Part shown: one piece after another, positions 2,181 to 37,748 of the stretch
Position numbering within the stretch: position 1 is the first letter of the stretch
Layout of the letters: the number at the start of each line of letters is the position of its first letter
Source: Bacteroidota bacterium
GTDB taxonomy: Bacteria > Bacteroidota > Bacteroidia > UKL13-3
NCBI GenBank assembly: GCA_027482225.1
Contig: JAIXWD010000007.1
Coordinates: 372,001 to 436,000, forward strand
Reading direction: 5' to 3'
Length of the DNA stretch: 64,000 nt
Notes under the pieces: model-generated
Told to the model about the DNA's origin: nothing
Databases searched by the model: none
The model's input: the letters and a program-made list of their open reading frames with translations, nothing else
Position numbers and translations under genes: made by a program

Positions 2181-3212
2181 ATGCATTACCAACAAATTAT
2201 TGTAGGACAAGGTTTAGCGGGCAGTTTACTTGCTCACCAACTGATAAAACTAAACCAACAGGTTTTGGTAATAGACAATGGCAATGTTCATTCTTCATCG
2301 CGTATTGCAGCAGGCATGTTTACACCCATTAGCGGCAAACGCATGGTTAAAGCGTGGATGGTAGACACCTTGTACCCAGAGGTAATAGGTACTTACAAAG
2401 AACTAGAAAACCTACTTGGTGCGCAATTTTTAAACGACATAAATATACAAATGAGTTTTGCTAGCATTAAGGAGCAAAACGATTTTTACAGTGCGTTAAA
2501 TGATAAAATTAACAAGTATGTTATTACCGAAACAACGCCTCACCAAGGCATACATGCTCCTTTTGGTTCGGTTGAAATTACACATAGTGGTTGGTTAAAC
2601 ACGCTGTTATTTACCAAAACTTTTAAAAAATACCTCACCAACTTAAACTGCTTTTTACAAGAACAATTTGATTTTAGTGCGTTAACTTATCACGACCAAA
2701 AATGGCATTACAAAAACCATACAGCTAACAGTGTGGTATTTTGCCAAGGGTATCAAAACAAAAACAACCCATACTTTAATCACATACCTGTAATTGACAA
2801 CAAAGGCGATGTGTTTAAAATAAAAACCACTGCTTTAAACAACCAAAAAATATACAAACGTGGTGCTTATGCAGTTAATTTGTTTGATGATGTGTTTAAA
2901 GTGGGTGCTACTTACAAATGGGATAATGACGACACCACTCCTACTCCACAAGGTTATGCAGAACTAAAAGATAAAACGGATGTTTTAATTGATGGGAGTT
3001 ACGAAGTATTGGAACACGTTGTAGGTATAAGACCAACCACCAAAGACCGCAGGCCCATTTTGGGAAAACACGAACAAGAACAGAATATGTATTTGTTTAA
3101 CGGACTAGGAAGTAAAGGTGTTTTAATTGCGCCATACTTTAGTAAAATAATGGCCGATTTTATATTAAATAATACAGTTATTGATAACGAAATTAGCACA
3201 AACAGATTTTAA
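2181..3212 (+). CDS. FAD-dependent oxidoreductase (DAO family)
   Basis: 343-residue flavoprotein of the D-amino-acid oxidase / MnmC C-domain type. The dinucleotide-binding GxGxxG is VGQGLAG at residues 8-14, with an acidic residue closing the second strand in LVIDNG. The SSRIAAGMF stretch and the C-terminal GIRPTTKDRRPILG plus FNGLGSKGVLIAPY are the usual second FAD-contacting segments. The substrate cannot be read from the sequence; glycine, proline or a modified tRNA base are family possibilities. It ends 1 base before the ATG of the next gene, so the two are probably co-transcribed and coupled. Confidence 0.85.
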   Translation: MHYQQIIVGQGLAGSLLAHQLIKLNQQVLVIDNGNVHSSSRIAAGMFTPISGKRMVKAWMVDTLYPEVIGTYKELENLLGAQFLNDINIQMSFASIKEQNDFYSALNDKINKYVITETTPHQGIHAPFGSVEITHSGWLNTLLFTKTFKKYLTNLNCFLQEQFDFSALTYHDQKWHYKNHTANSVVFCQGYQNKNNPYFNHIPVIDNKGDVFKIKTTALNNQKIYKRGAYAVNLFDDVFKVGATYKWDNDDTTPTPQGYAELKDKTDVLIDGSYEVLEHVVGIRPTTKDRRPILGKHEQEQNMYLFNGLGSKGVLIAPYFSKIMADFILNNTVIDNEISTNRF

Positions 3213-3213
3213 C

Positions 3214-3987
3214 ATGATTACTTTAAACTACAAAGAATACGGTAGCGGAGAAAAATACTTCATAATTTTACATGGCTTTTTAGGTTCATTGGATAATTGG
3301 CATAGCCTAGCCACCGAATGGGGAAACCATGGTTTACATGTTTTTGTAGTGGATCAAAGAAACCACGGTAAATCGCCACATACCTCATCACACAGTATAC
3401 CTTTAATGGTGGGTGATGTGAAAGATTTTATGGAGCAACACCACATTACAAAAACAACACTATTAGGCCATAGTATGGGAGGTAAAGTGGCCATGCAATT
3501 TGCTTTAACTTATCCGGAGTTAACAGATAAATTAATTGTGGCTGATATGGCTCCTCGACCATACCGCAATGGTGCACATGATGATGTATTTAAAGCCATA
3601 AACAATGTTGATTTAAGCAAAGCACAAACACGTAAAGATGTAGAGCAAGCCATGGCACAATACTTAGGCGATTTTGGTACACGACAGTTTATCATGAAAG
3701 GTTTGGATCGTGCAGACGAATCGAATTATACATGGAAGTTTAATGTGGAAGTATTGAAGCGTGATTACGTAAATATTTTACAAGAGATTTATTCGCTAAA
3801 TCATTTTTTGGGTGATGCCTTATTTATTAGAGGTGGCAACTCGCTTTATGTGCAAGAAAAAGATTTGCCAGCTATACATAAATTATTTCCGCACTACAAA
3901 TTAGTTACGGTTGATGATGCAGGTCATTGGCTGCATGCTGATAAACCTAAAAAAGTAATTGAGGAAGTGATGAATTTTTTGACATAA
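3214..3987 (+). CDS. Alpha/beta hydrolase, YbfF-like esterase
   Basis: 257-residue alpha/beta-fold hydrolase. The ATG at 3214 is used in preference to a TTG at 3181, because the protein from it starts directly at the first beta strand and the TTG would overlap the upstream gene by 32 bases. Oxyanion-hole region HGFLGSLDNW (20-29), DQRNHGKS after strand 4, nucleophile elbow GHSMGG with Ser87, and the catalytic His at about 238 in DAGHWLHADKP are all present. The pattern closely resembles E. coli YbfF, an acyl-CoA/short-ester hydrolase. No signal peptide, so cytoplasmic. It directly follows the FAD oxidoreductase gene. Confidence 0.9.
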   Translation: MITLNYKEYGSGEKYFIILHGFLGSLDNWHSLATEWGNHGLHVFVVDQRNHGKSPHTSSHSIPLMVGDVKDFMEQHHITKTTLLGHSMGGKVAMQFALTYPELTDKLIVADMAPRPYRNGAHDDVFKAINNVDLSKAQTRKDVEQAMAQYLGDFGTRQFIMKGLDRADESNYTWKFNVEVLKRDYVNILQEIYSLNHFLGDALFIRGGNSLYVQEKDLPAIHKLFPHYKLVTVDDAGHWLHADKPKKVIEEVMNFLT

Positions 3988-4893: not shown

Positions 4894-6762
4894 TTATTTA
4901 GTTTCTACGGTTCTTGTTTTTTTGATGGTAATAGGTCCAATTTTTTTGATGGTGGTATTAACCTTGGTCTTTTTATCTTTTGATGTGCTATCGATTATTA
5001 TTTCTTCTATTTCAATTTTGGTATCGGCTGTCCAATTGCTTCTATCGCAGGTTAAACAATCCACACCTTCATCAGTTACTTTTAAATACACGTAAGGTGT
5101 TTCCTCTATATCTTCAACTGCATTCTCTAAGTCTTCGTTTTTTATCATCTCTAACACATCGTATTGTACTTTTAAAACTGTGCCAATAGGTATCCATAAA
5201 CCAAGCGTTAATTCTTGGTTTTTAAATGGCTGATTAGCTAATCCAACACCGTTATCTAAAATCACTTTACTGCTATCAACCATTAAATTTAATGATGCTT
5301 TTCGGGCCAAGTCTTCTGCTTCTTCTTGTGTTTTACCCCACGATTCACGTTTTAACTTAACCTGCATTAAGTTATTTCCCGATGAATTTATGGTGATGCG
5401 TGGTTCTTTAAACAACAACATGTCGTTTTGTATTTTCCACGATACTTCTCCGTCATTTAAATGAAAATCAAATTCATCCACATCATCATCTAAAAAAGCT
5501 GGGTTTAATTTAATCAATAAGGTATCGTTAACGGGTAATTCTTGTTCGTTGGTAATTAACACCACTTCATGTTTAATTTCACTTCTATACATCACCAATG
5601 CTACAATACTTGATGCAATACCAGCCAAAAACAGTATGGTGGTAATTACAGAAACATACCTCACTTTTTTATGCGTAATCAATTGATAAGCCAAGGCTGC
5701 AAATCCTAACACAACAGAAAAAACAATGGCATTTATGCCCCATTTGGCAAGCATTAAAATGGTATCGTTAATGGTGATGGTACGCACAAATTCAGAAAAA
5801 TCTCCACTGCCATCAATACCAAAAGTTAATACTAAAAATAAAATACTACCTGGCAATACAATTGTAAACAACACCAATAAACCAACCATAATGGTAACTA
5901 CTTTTAACAAGTTTTTTAGTACCGGACTTGTAGTTGCTTTTTGTGTAATGTTTGATGCTGTGTTGCGAATTTCACGTTCAATATTATTGATGTCGATTTG
6001 GCTACCGCGCATTTGCAATTTTTCGGTGGCAGTTTTGGCTTCAGGAATGATTAACCATAAAATAAAGTAAGCCAATAAACCTGTACCAAAAGCAAAAAAC
6101 GAAATGATAAATACCACACGCATCACCACTTCACTCACACCTAAATACGAACCAATTCCTGAGCAAACACCACCAATCATTTTATCATCGGTATTGCGAA
6201 ATAATTTACGCGAACTAGTTCCTGAAAATTGAGGTAACTCATTAGGTGTAGCCTCTGGCATTATTATCCAAAGTATTAAATACAACAACAAACCCGAGCC
6301 AAAAACAAAGAATGAAATTAAAAATCCAGCACGCGCAATAATTGGATCTATGTTTAAGAAATTACCCAAGCCACCACACACACCACTAATTACTTTGTTG
6401 TGCGGATCGCGTTTTAATTTTTTAGGTCCTGCATTGTTTTGCGTATTGTTTTGGGTTGATGATTGCTGGTAAGATTGACTTGAAGATTGGGTTTCCTCCT
6501 CGCCTTCCATTTGCCAAGGATTACCCATCACCGCAATAACATCAGCCACATCTTTAGGTAAGATTACCGTGTAGTTATCGGTAAGTTTTAGCTGCAACAA
6601 CTCAGCTATACGCGTCTCAATGTCAGATATAATTTCGGCCGAACCTTCGGTACCTGAAAAGTGTTTGTGCAAAGCATCTATATATTGTTTTAACTGCTCG
6701 TATGCAACCTCATCAATACTAATAATGATGCCGTTTAAGTTAATGTTTACTACCTTATTCAT
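4894..6762 (-). CDS. Membrane protein with two PspC domains
   Basis: 622 residues. After ~90 residues of charged N-terminal domain and a Gln/Asn/Ser linker come two PspC domains at about 114-170 and 184-241, each with the GVCGGLG or GVCSGIG motif and a hydrophobic helix ending in LWIIMPEA or LWLIIPEA. Further membrane helices follow near 285-390, then a ~230-residue soluble C-terminal part ending in lysine- and threonine-rich sequence. PspC domains are known from envelope-stress systems; this long tandem form next to a PadR gene is a common Bacteroidota arrangement whose job is not settled. It starts 9 bases after the padR stop, so one operon. Confidence 0.88.
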   Translation of the reverse strand: MNKVVNINLNGIIISIDEVAYEQLKQYIDALHKHFSGTEGSAEIISDIETRIAELLQLKLTDNYTVILPKDVADVIAVMGNPWQMEGEEETQSSSQSYQQSSTQNNTQNNAGPKKLKRDPHNKVISGVCGGLGNFLNIDPIIARAGFLISFFVFGSGLLLYLILWIIMPEATPNELPQFSGTSSRKLFRNTDDKMIGGVCSGIGSYLGVSEVVMRVVFIISFFAFGTGLLAYFILWLIIPEAKTATEKLQMRGSQIDINNIEREIRNTASNITQKATTSPVLKNLLKVVTIMVGLLVLFTIVLPGSILFLVLTFGIDGSGDFSEFVRTITINDTILMLAKWGINAIVFSVVLGFAALAYQLITHKKVRYVSVITTILFLAGIASSIVALVMYRSEIKHEVVLITNEQELPVNDTLLIKLNPAFLDDDVDEFDFHLNDGEVSWKIQNDMLLFKEPRITINSSGNNLMQVKLKRESWGKTQEEAEDLARKASLNLMVDSSKVILDNGVGLANQPFKNQELTLGLWIPIGTVLKVQYDVLEMIKNEDLENAVEDIEETPYVYLKVTDEGVDCLTCDRSNWTADTKIEIEEIIIDSTSKDKKTKVNTTIKKIGPITIKKTRTVETK

Positions 6763-6771
6763 AAGATTATG

Positions 6772-7113
6772 CTAGTTATGGGTTTGATTTTTTTGAATAA
6801 TTTGGTTTACCGAGTTGGTTAGTTCGTTCCAGGTTAATTCCAACTCGTTTAAAAAAGTGTTACCCTCGGGCGTTAGTTGAAAGTACTTACGTGGTGGCCC
6901 CGACTTTGATTCAATCCATTGGTAACTTAACAAACCTTCGTTTTTAAGTCGGGTTAACAAAGGATACAAAGTACCCTCTACCACAATTAGCTGGGCTTGT
7001 TTTAATTCTTCTAAAATATCGGAAGCATACACCTCGCCCCTTTTAATAATGGCCAAAATGCAGTATTCTAAAATACCTTTTTTCATTTGTGCCTTCGAGT
7101 TTTCTACATTCAT
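6772..7113 (-). CDS. PadR-family transcriptional regulator
   Basis: 113-residue winged-helix repressor. Core pattern: GILEYCILAIIKRGEVYASDILEEL, then VVEGTLYPLLTRLKNEGLLSYQW, and GPPRKYFQLTPEGN, which is the PadR wing and the YY/YF-xLTxxG signature. It is the first gene of the operon with the PspC protein. By analogy with other PadR-PspC pairs it probably represses its own operon and responds to an unknown envelope signal; this is inference. The region upstream (7114-7150) is AT-rich and should hold the promoter. Confidence 0.92.
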   Translation of the reverse strand: MNVENSKAQMKKGILEYCILAIIKRGEVYASDILEELKQAQLIVVEGTLYPLLTRLKNEGLLSYQWIESKSGPPRKYFQLTPEGNTFLNELELTWNELTNSVNQIIQKNQTHN

Positions 7114-7578
7114 GTTATTTGTTATTTAGGCTTACTTTGTTTTTAATTTACATGTGGCGCTCACACTTCGAAGCATTAGCGTAAAAGTGAATCAACCTAA
7201 CTCCGGTTCTCGATACTCGCACTCACGCACATCCAACCCAAAGCGAACTCGAACAGGCTTTAACTTCAACTTGTCAACTAATTTCTGATCAACTCCTATT
7301 TTAGCTCCGCTGAACTTCGTTTCGATACTCACAATCACGCACATCCAACCCAAAGCGCATGCTGACGCTATGGTCAGCACTTAGCTCGAACAGGCTGTAA
7401 CTTCAACCCTCGCACTTTGAAGCTTCAGCGAAGAAGTGCTTCAACGCAACAAATGTAAATAAATGGTAAGGTACTATGCAATACAAAGTACCTTTCATAA
7501 AAATATAACACTGATTATCAATAACATTATTTTTACAAAACTTACCTGTTATTAAAATTAAGCCCTCATTTTTGTAGC
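7114..7578. repeat. Repeat-filled intergenic region
   Basis: 465 bases without a gene. A related pair of hairpin-forming sequences lies at the edges (CACTTCGAAGC... near 7162-7186 and CACTTTGAAGC... near 7413-7440). Between them are two direct copies of a ~60-base unit, 7211-7270 and 7323-7407, sharing the run CACGCACATCCAACCCAAAG and the end CTCGAACAGGCT-TAACTTCAAC. The second copy is interrupted by a hairpin at 7358-7384. A frame can be opened across it on the minus strand but is made only of repeat sequence. Confidence 0.7.
7358..7384. repeat. REP-like hairpin inserted in a repeat copy
   Basis: TGCTGAC (7360-7366) and GTCAGCA (7373-7379) form a perfect 7-bp stem with a 6-base loop. The 27 bases replace two bases of the unit that is otherwise the same at 7211-7270, so this looks like an inserted or mobile palindrome. 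The CTGAC/GTCAG words recur in hairpins near 15200, 15265 and 37480. Confidence 0.6.
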
Positions 7579-8211
7579 ATGTACCTTAGCAACCTGCAAA
7601 AAATAATAGATCAAAATCGTTGGTTTTATTGGCCTTACTTTTTGCTTGTTGGCATAGCGGCTTTAATTCAGGCTAATTACCACCAATTTGATATCAGTTT
7701 GTGGATTAACAGCCACCACAATTCCGCTCTTGATTTTACGTTTAAGCACCTTACCCACCTTGGCGATGGTTTGTTTGCAGCTGTGGTATGCGCCATTATA
7801 CTTGCGTTTTTCCGTCAACATTTTTGGAGCAGTATATTTTGCGTGTATGTTCCAGCTTTAGTTACACAAATTTTAAAACGTTTGGTATTTGTTGATCACC
7901 TTCGGCCTGCTGCTAAAATGAGTGCATACACCCAATTGCATTTTGTTGAAGGAATTACCATACATACACAAAACAGCTTTCCCTCTGGGCATAGTACAGG
8001 TGCATTTGCATTATTTTTATTTTTGGCATTGTTAATCCCAAACAAAAAATTGGGTATTGTATTTCTTGCCATTGCTTTACTTGCCGCGTTTACACGTGTT
8101 TATTTGCTACAGCACTTTTTCGAAGATGTTTTTGTGGGTTCTGTTATTGCTGTAACTTGCACCACATTATTGTTTACATTATTTATAACAAAACGTGCAA
8201 CACAAAAGTAA
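7579..8211 (+). CDS. PAP2-family lipid phosphatase
   Basis: 210-residue membrane phosphatase with about six hydrophobic helices. The three PAP2 motifs are present: K100...RP at 109-110, PSGH at 135-138, and R173...H179...D183 (FTRVYLLQHFFED). Family members dephosphorylate undecaprenyl diphosphate, phosphatidic acid or lipid A. Its coupling to an ArnT-like glycosyltransferase (17-base overlap) suggests a task in polyprenyl-phosphate sugar or lipid A chemistry at the inner membrane. The start ATG follows a CATTTTTG box by only a few bases, so its leader may be very short. Confidence 0.9.
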   Translation: MYLSNLQKIIDQNRWFYWPYFLLVGIAALIQANYHQFDISLWINSHHNSALDFTFKHLTHLGDGLFAAVVCAIILAFFRQHFWSSIFCVYVPALVTQILKRLVFVDHLRPAAKMSAYTQLHFVEGITIHTQNSFPSGHSTGAFALFLFLALLIPNKKLGIVFLAIALLAAFTRVYLLQHFFEDVFVGSVIAVTCTTLLFTLFITKRATQK

Positions 8212-36936: not shown

Positions 36937-37474
36937 TATTCTAATGTTACTTATTTTTGTTAATGTATTACCATCGTTTGCACAAACTGTGGACTTAAGT
37001 AACAAATATGTTAAAACCATAGAAGGCGATAGTGTGCAATTACTTAAATTAAACAATAAAAAATCAATTACAATTATCGCAAATACATTATCCTGTTCAG
37101 GATGTTTAAATAATTTAATTGCTTTTCTTGATTCATTATCAAATCAACACACTTTAAAAGACGTTAACTTAAACATTATTATATGTATTGGTGAAGACGT
37201 GCTTCAGCAAAGACAACAAATTATTTTTTTTAAAAAGAAGTCTAAATTAATTAATGTATATTTTGAGAACATTAATTACGATACACACCTTAGTTATAGA
37301 AAACCTGATTACGGAATTTTGAAAGATTTTAATGCGACAGGTAATCCAATATTACTACTAATAAATAATACGCTGATAACATATGAATTGATTAACTATA
37401 ACAGTCTGTTTAATGAAATAAATGTAAGCGATTTAGCTCGCAAGAAGATTATCAACTTCCTCTGTTCACGCTGA
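36923..37474 (+). CDS. Exported thioredoxin-like protein (locus B)
   Basis: 183 residues from the ATG at 36923 (MSKSSILMLLIFVNVLPSFAQ, a signal peptide); an earlier ATG at 36866 would overlap the previous gene by 71 bases. The pattern GDSVQLLKLNNKKSITIIANTLSC-SGC places a CSGC active-site-like motif at the end of a beta strand, and ATGNPILLL may be the cis-Pro strand. It parallels GDTASLSQLLANKSAILV...CSPC in the fused protein at 19248. Translationally coupled to the upstream gene. Probably acts on thiols in the periplasm, perhaps of the Cx3Gx3C proteins. Confidence 0.72.
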   Translation: MSKSSILMLLIFVNVLPSFAQTVDLSNKYVKTIEGDSVQLLKLNNKKSITIIANTLSCSGCLNNLIAFLDSLSNQHTLKDVNLNIIICIGEDVLQQRQQIIFFKKKSKLINVYFENINYDTHLSYRKPDYGILKDFNATGNPILLLINNTLITYELINYNSLFNEINVSDLARKKIINFLCSR

Positions 37475-37748
37475 CGTGCCGTCAGTGTGCTGCAAAACAT
37501 CTTAACAAATTAGCTTAAAATTGATGCGTTAATTTATATTAACTTTAACAGCTAAATATAAGCTACATACTTATTTAGTTTTATATTTGGTTGAATATAA
37601 ATTTTATAAAAACAGATGATGTTAGGTTTCAAATTTAACATCAAGCAACAGATGAGTTTGTATCTCTACATTAGAGTATATAACTACACACGGACGGAAC
37701 GTCCTTGAACTGGCGGAGTTATTGTTATAACTTTAACATATTTATAAA
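37475..37748. other. Intergenic region after locus B
   Basis: Begins with an imperfect palindrome CGCTGACGTGCCGTCAGTGTG near 37478-37498, REP-like, which may terminate locus B. At 37692-37704 GGACG-gaa-CGTCC forms a small hairpin within the left arm of the inverted repeat at 37693-38121, followed by GAACTGGCGG (37707-37716), a degenerate form of the cassette-end word AAATTGGCGG. Confidence 0.5.

Follow-up and report, generated by a model that had tools for sequence, protein, structure and literature searches.

The window analysed here is a stretch of 64,000 nucleotides (G000:C3:372001-436000) from a genome, designated G000, of 2.72 Mb in 24 contigs. Within it, two divergent genes, encoding a PadR-family regulator and a PAP2-family phosphatase, enclose an intergenic region that carries two copies of a repeat unit, A and B, in direct orientation (Table 1). 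The nearest named relatives of the PAP2 protein are found in metagenome assemblies labelled Bacteroidetes or Chitinophaga. An inverted repeat, GGTACTATGCAATACAAAGTACC, was also observed upstream of the PAP2 gene (7470-7492); it is conserved in G000, G008 and G003 and partly in G005, and it may be the PadR operator.

Table 1. Features of the intergenic region and its neighbouring genes (window coordinates)
Feature	Position	Strand	Description
PadR-family regulator gene	6772..7113	-	left neighbour of the intergenic region; PF03551, 6.8e-18
Unit A	7210..7259	+	plain class II TCGATAC-arm-CTCGAACAGGCT, 50 nt, no insert
Spacer between units A and B	7260..7300	+	tandem pair period 112 bp
Second insertable module	7301..7321	+	TTAGCTCCGCTGAACTTCGTT; directly 5' of the TCGATA of unit B; 21 nt, net 20
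Unit B	7322..7396	+	type of unit A plus the hairpin module, 75 nt
25-nt hairpin module, subtype b	7360..7384	+	inserted between A and CTCGA of unit B
Palindrome	7360..7379	.	7-bp stem 7360-7366/7373-7379, loop GCTATG 7367-7372
PAP2-family phosphatase gene	7579..8211	+	right neighbour, divergent; PF01569, 4.4e-17

A preliminary description of this DNA had reported a tandem unit whose second copy is interrupted by a palindrome, and the alignment bears this out: 7210-7245 matches 7322-7357 (94% over 36 nt) and 7248-7270 matches 7385-7407 (96% over 23 nt). With up to 3 mismatches allowed, the window contains just two occurrences of a 22-nt stretch of the unit, compared with none in 100 shuffled sequences. 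The insertion had been given as 27 bases at 7358. Unit B does hold 27 bases (7358-7384) in place of the AA of unit A (7246-7247), a net gain of 25, but when B is compared with ordinary units, which read GCGCA|CTCGA, its insert is a clean 25 nt, TGCTGACGCTATGGTCAGCACTTAG, located at 7360-7384. Likewise, unit A is the uninterrupted copy that it was said to be, but because it reads GCGAA it does not represent the exact pre-insertion sequence. The second module of unit B was absent from that description. As single-stranded DNA, the 27-mer forms a 7-bp stem with a predicted energy of -6.5 kcal/mol (z -3.66), and none of 200 shuffled sequences was as stable; the whole of unit A, a single sequence, folds no better than shuffled DNA (z -0.3).

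To define the unit, we used nine genomes of the genus, G000 to G008, the window's own included (completeness: G002 65%, G003 81%, G006 82%, G008 88% and G005 98%). The unit has the form TCGATAC-arm-CTCGARNNGGCT, in which the fixed ends TCTCGATAC and ACTCGARNNGGCT enclose exchangeable, self-pairing arms. The pattern TCGATA-N(10-40)-TCGARNNGGCT gave 174 matches in seven of the nine genomes (G000 15, G001 47, G003 26, G005 20, G006 30, G007 21 and G008 15) and none in G002 and G004, and the reversed pattern, included as a control, gave none in any of the nine. When the search was extended to 64 genomes of the order, all from one family, nine had a match, and the two that lie beyond the genus had one match each, with unrelated arms and no more than the control. 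As judged from these searches, the unit is a genus-restricted palindromic repeat. The units of the window belong to arm class II (TCGC...GCGA and variants), whose inner ends were seen by inspection to change yet stay paired (TCGC/GCGA, AAGC/GCTT, TTGC/GCAA, CGC/GCG); other units have arm stems such as CCCGAT/ATCGGG, ATTGC/GCAAT and ACCCGA/TCGGGT. Units occur as inverted pairs and as arrays, of which G003:C320, with eight alternating units, is an example. The alternating orientation and regular spacing typical of BIMEs are thus found in the arrays, while the window pair is direct. As for a likeness to MITEs, the unit ends TCTCGATAC/GTATCGAGA point outward in pairs, and the hairpin inserts show no clear target duplication.

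The 25-nt module, searched with up to 3 mismatches, was found in 13 copies in five of the nine genomes (control, 0), all of them directly 5' of CTCGA or a one-base variant of it. A genome-wide count of the palindrome, as the preliminary description had suggested, found its 18-nt pattern exactly once in G000, with three close copies in one array. Beyond the window site, the core hairpin [AT]GACGCTNNGGTC[AT] is present in 79 copies in five of the nine genomes (G000 13, G001 26, G006 5, G007 24, G008 11); the reversed control gave none in the nine, and the pattern was absent from G002 to G005, two of which, G003 and G005, have units. These copies represent 77 distinct contexts. A strict rule places 29 of them in units, including units with unrelated arms, and six more lie in units with a damaged CTCGA (seven sites were flagged, and L281 1089 was excluded by eye as false). 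The other 42 were not placed in a unit and correspond to two further repeat types, to hairpins standing alone or to hairpins next to a GIY-YIG gene of the tRNA-linked kind. One of the 42 contexts is interrupted by Ns, in L272 the start of a unit runs into another repeat, and a few (L242, for example) resemble coding sequence. CTCGA is therefore not the only home of the hairpin. One further repeat that contains the same core hairpin, approximately CCAATGCCGAAGGCGTTGCTARCAGACGCTTCGGTCTGYACCAATGGTCTGCG, was seen at L274, L270, L253 and L260. Even though other repeats carry the hairpin, its fixed point within units led us to reject the idea of a free element that lands anywhere.

The stem varies in a paired manner, since subtype a (ACAGAC/GTCTGT) and subtype b (GCTGAC/GTCAGC) differ by changes on both sides. 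Among 56 distinct 24-mers, the pair adjoining GAC/GTC is A-T in 43, T-A in eight and unpaired in five, under a pattern that demands A or T on both sides. Pairing at the next two positions outward exceeds that of shuffled sets (5 and 7 of 2000 as high, with kinship among the 24-mers ignored), and no excess was found further out.

The preliminary description took the two window copies as direct evidence that the palindrome moves. This does not hold for the window alone, because a single fixed point (13 of 13 copies) is also expected of a mere subfamily of units, so that relatives are needed to show insertion. Of 27 hairpin-bearing units read, 20 have a hairpin-free partner that is at least 86% identical. 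In these pairs the main gap spans 25-28 nt, and the alignment allows it to lie immediately 5' of CTCGA (in one pair, TTCGA); the L249 pair has further small gaps besides. Three pairs from G001 are identical outside the gap (C10 and C95, 50/50; the C84 pair, 42/42; C20 and C73, 51/51). Moreover, at one orthologous locus, whose flanks are collinear for about 1.9 kb or more on each side and 82-89% identical over about 4 kb, the hairpin is present in two species (G000 and G008) and absent from two others (G001 and G006). Identity of the PAP2 protein to that of G000 is 93% in G007, 93% over 181 residues in G008 (85% for a second fragment), 88% in G006, 84% in G001 and 58% in G003, an order under which the simplest history is that the lineage of G000 and G008 acquired the hairpin. 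The second module behaves in the same way: one G008 unit has a copy that its orthologues are without, and the unit on the PadR side has it in G006 and is without it in G001 (59 of 62). Given the pairs with and without the hairpin and the orthologous site, we rejected the reading of a fixed unit subfamily. Insertion of the hairpin into pre-existing units, as the preliminary description proposed, is well supported by these sequence comparisons, and the hairpin is probably younger than the units. As for IS200/IS605-type insertion, the inserts show no clear target duplication and, within units, a fixed point, A^CTCGA; no transposase was linked to it. In G006 (C154, L287), the region of about 2612-3255, at the hairpin-free unit of the orthologous locus, also contains a tandem duplication, roughly 322 bases in length.

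The uninterrupted form that the preliminary description looked for in a relative was found in G008, where unit A stands alone between the same PadR and PAP2 genes; with the core hairpin also present beyond the window site, neither of the two outcomes named there as refuting was observed. G003 and G005 are without a unit at this locus. In G001 and G006, the PadR gene is accompanied by a class II unit with another arm and the PAP2 gene by other units, and the contigs are broken in between; the G007 contig begins at the PAP2 gene, its PadR gene not being found, and G002 and G004 have no comparable locus. Unit B is present here only in G000 and absent from G008, G003 and G005. Since its nearest hairpin-free partner among the units read is A (47/51), the preferred reading is that B arose by local copying of A and acquired modules afterwards, most likely both of them.

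The genus encodes 30 GIY-YIG genes, 15 of them small. Five of the small genes, which we refer to as the array subfamily, lie inside unit arrays (G000:C22, G001:C20, G001:C73, G006:C4 and G007:C125), where a less strict unit pattern counts 6 to 15 units within 1 kb; it counts none near the remaining ten small genes. Gene order indicates that the five represent one or two ancestral loci, and we consequently do not count the synteny of the arrays as independent support for the link. The core hairpin was found within 1 kb of eight of the 15 small genes, compared with none of 11 Y1 transposase genes read; three of these eight belong to a different, tRNA-linked subfamily. At L276, L279 and L210, a small GIY-YIG gene, which in G008 adjoins tRNA-Ser, is followed by a sequence that resembles the 3' end of a tRNA and carries the hairpin GAGACGCTTCGGTCTC or a close variant; in G007:C128 such a sequence also precedes the gene.

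The array protein is encoded by an open frame and matches PF01541 (1e-18, 67.8 bits, cut-off 22.6). No match to it was found in NCBIfam. A PADLOC search gave only marginal matches (0.005 and 0.009). As a one-domain GIY-YIG protein of some 100 residues, the array protein resembles the UPF0213 proteins (PDB 1zg2, 1ywl), but the array genes lie among repeats, whereas Bacillus yazA lies between trmNF and rsmI, with no copy in 23.6 kb of the flanking motif described below. GIY-YIG homing endonucleases, which cut the empty site and are copied together with their gene, share the nuclease fold, and the array nuclease, too, might cut DNA around its own gene; no intron or intein host was noticed at the loci read. 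The association is also incomplete: in G005 (98% complete), 20 units were counted but no small GIY-YIG gene; G003, with 26 units, has a single small gene, a homologue of the array genes with no unit and one motif copy nearby; and in G008 (88% complete), which has units and hairpins, the array gene was not found. The units of G003 and G005 without a nearby gene and the hairpins outside units stand against a strict pairing of nuclease and repeat.

Homologues of the array protein are present in 43 of 62 genomes of the family, genus included. Outside the genus, their flanks contain other TCGA palindromes, such as TTTCGAGCGAAGTCGAGAAA or CCCTGAGCTTGTCGAAGGG. We read 17 of the 23 homologues outside the genus that score at least 68 bits, one per genome, several with flanks cut by contig ends, and counted the motif GAGC(2-3)GYCGA, which had been chosen after reading these same flanks. 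It was found within 1 kb of 16 of the 17 (68.5-132.6 bits), in six genera besides that of the window, although three of the 16 loci (G043, G033, G051) come from close relatives; the G028 homologue (59% identical) has no copy. The motif was absent within 1 kb of eight more distant GIY-YIG genes and at 30 Y1 loci, one of which is from the window's genus. Arbitrary stretches from 16 of the same 17 genomes held eight copies in 365,505 bases, falling in 6 of 182 windows of 2 kb; this count omits L341, which held the G050 nuclease locus, and with it the figures become 11 copies in 385,505 bases and 7 of 192 windows (Fisher, 1e-17). For the 16 of 17 homologues, Fisher values are 8e-18 against the arbitrary windows, 8e-6 against the weaker GIY-YIG genes and 1e-11 against the Y1 loci, and since the rows share ancestry these are not strict probabilities. 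Inverted arms of at least 4 bp flank 75 of 95 motif copies (14 loci), compared with 47 of 840 random positions. On a 39-row GIY-YIG tree, the label 'embedded' requires five changes, compared with a mean of 13.2 for shuffled labels, none of 500 of which was as low.

Homologues also occur in 13 plasmid records, five of which were read. At three of the four alphaproteobacterial loci read, those of Methylobacterium bullatum, M. aquaticum and Sphingomonas parapaucimobilis, the gene is flanked by palindromes to its left and right. In M. bullatum, the only three copies of CCTCAGGATGAGG in 24 kb lie on the gene's two sides. The Methylobacterium repeats (L349, L351), which were noticed by eye before being counted with a different word, have the fixed ends CCTTCGAGG...CCTCAGGATGAGG and different hairpin arms, and so resemble the genus units in combining fixed ends with exchangeable arms. 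The motif GAGC(2-3)GYCGA itself is not enriched at the two Methylobacterium loci, where 0 of 13 and 1 of 9 copies fall inside the 1-kb flanks; in S. parapaucimobilis it occurs five times within 1 kb, of 15 in 24 kb, and it was absent within 1 kb of the Sphingomonas paeninsulae and Bacillus subtilis homologues. At the level of sequence, the genus units are a local version of a wider class of TCGA-ended palindromes around one small, stand-alone GIY-YIG subfamily.

From this neighbourhood we infer that the nuclease may drive the repeats. The explanation that we tentatively favour, at not quite even confidence, is one of two nested layers of small repeats: the outer layer consists of the TCGA-ended units, linked to the GIY-YIG nuclease, and the inner layer of the hairpin, which enters them at A^CTCGA. 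The second module inserts directly 5' of TCGATA, at the other end of the unit. The nuclease would recognise or nick the TCGA ends; repair at the cut would then capture the hairpin at the exact point A^CTCGA and would multiply units into arrays. A broader form of this proposal is more doubtful: the common TCGA-ended palindromes of Bacteroidota and some Alphaproteobacteria may be the cognate repeats of the GIY-YIG subfamily, which would cut beside CTCGA. Such cutting could multiply units, swap arms and create the point at which smaller hairpins nest.

The main rival to nuclease action is ordinary spread by replication slippage, template switching or gene conversion, with the GIY-YIG gene as a passenger or parasite that settles among such repeats or travels with them but does not act on them. 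We consider this possible, if somewhat doubtful. Arrays were observed, as was the tandem duplication of a region that includes a unit, units exist in G003 and G005 without a nuclease gene nearby, and the presence of the same module beside different arms is what recombination between units could give. Against this reading, the inserts enter at one exact point without the flanking sequence of a donor unit, and one GIY-YIG subfamily recurs beside repeats of other kinds in six further genera and, as judged by eye, in Alphaproteobacteria.

A Y1 transposase, either RAYT or IS200-like, could instead move the hairpin in trans as single-stranded DNA, as proposed for REPs. We searched for PF01797 in G000 and 58 genomes of the family. 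G000 has two Y1 genes (RAYT or IS200), one of them broken; the other, on contig C20, is a RAYT (NF047646, 98.6 bits), so that the gene whose presence the preliminary description asked about does exist, but its flanking palindrome differs from that of the window. Contig C20 (L029, 1-3762) is small, with identical 60-base ends, and carries the RAYT gene and a partial second copy of its start; palindromes of the form CGACACAC.GACGGCA...CGTGAAC flank the gene on both sides, and two similar ones lie in the window about 190 bases apart in opposite orientation (37461-37492, minus strand, and 37684-37713, plus strand). The short hairpin, the lack of a clear target duplication expected of single-strand transposition and the resemblance of the stem CTGAC/GTCAG to that of the C20 palindrome agree with such a mover. 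Nevertheless, 11 of the 13 Y1 genes of the genus were read, some with flanks that end at contig ends, and none has the unit or the core hairpin within 1 kb. Seven Y1 genes whose flanks were read lie among other hairpins; at L160, L161, L162, L163, L165 and L166, the relatives' genes stand among short hairpins, each set unlike the window's by eye. In addition, G006 (82% complete) has units and hairpins and no Y1 match. We consider a Y1 mover unlikely, and at 11 of the 13 genus loci we found no link by which the RAYT could be retained as the mover of the hairpin.

The copy number also bears on the earlier description of the palindrome as REP-like; the reading as a RAYT-mobilised REP is not supported. 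REPs are described as usually exceeding 100 copies per genome (PMC2817692), whereas the core hairpin has 13 in G000 and at most 26 in any genome of the genus. Like a REP, the window copy is a short palindrome (a 25-nt module with a 7-bp stem) between two genes, but no cognate RAYT with the same palindrome was found among the 11 Y1 genes read, and the foot of the hairpin has no GTAG-type tag (no GTAG or CTAC in 7351-7395).

A further possibility is that the hairpin is the older state and that hairpin-free units are precise deletions. Palindromes delete readily, and both states coexist. Against it, the units of G003 and G005 occur in the absence of any core hairpin, and the orthologous site is hairpin-free in the genomes with 84% and 88% PAP2 identity and occupied in the one with 93% (181 residues); furthermore, the borders of subtype b offer no direct repeat usable by slippage. 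We regard precise loss as very improbable. A cellular function that maintains the modules, for example as a transcript end or an attenuator, in place of a selfish nature is hardly credible: although three stem pairs beyond GAC/GTC tend to stay paired among 56 distinct copies (kinship ignored), Rfam gave no match in 6700-7700 at E up to 1, presence differs among close relatives, and the two window units stand between divergently oriented genes rather than where transcripts end.

Among known systems, BOX and ERIC are modular bacterial repeats in which a short internal module may be present or missing at a fixed position, as in the genus unit, but the genus module is also found alone, in other repeats and in units with unrelated arms. 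The REP, BIME and REPIN elements mobilised by RAYT (TnpA_REP) share with the genus units short palindromes with fixed ends, inverted pairs or arrays, and density near a gene for a DNA enzyme. They differ in that the enzyme beside the genus arrays is a GIY-YIG nuclease and not an HUH tyrosine transposase, that the arms of the genus units are exchangeable between fixed ends, and that the hairpin is low in copy number. By analogy, the proposed pair of GIY-YIG nuclease and TCGA palindrome would correspond to that of RAYT and REP, with an enzyme of unrelated kind. The CGTC-tagged REPs, as presented in PMC3733652, are likewise a palindromic family without a known transposase; their tag is different, and the passages describing them make no link to GIY-YIG. 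Among open-access titles, none linking GIY-YIG nucleases to palindromic repeats was apparent.

With the pairs of units with and without the hairpin, one of them orthologous, precise insertion of a 25-nt hairpin is directly visible. If the GIY-YIG subfamily is the partner of the TCGA-ended palindromes, a widespread class of short repeats would gain a testable origin, and the nested hairpins would be natural records of the sites at which the enzyme acts.
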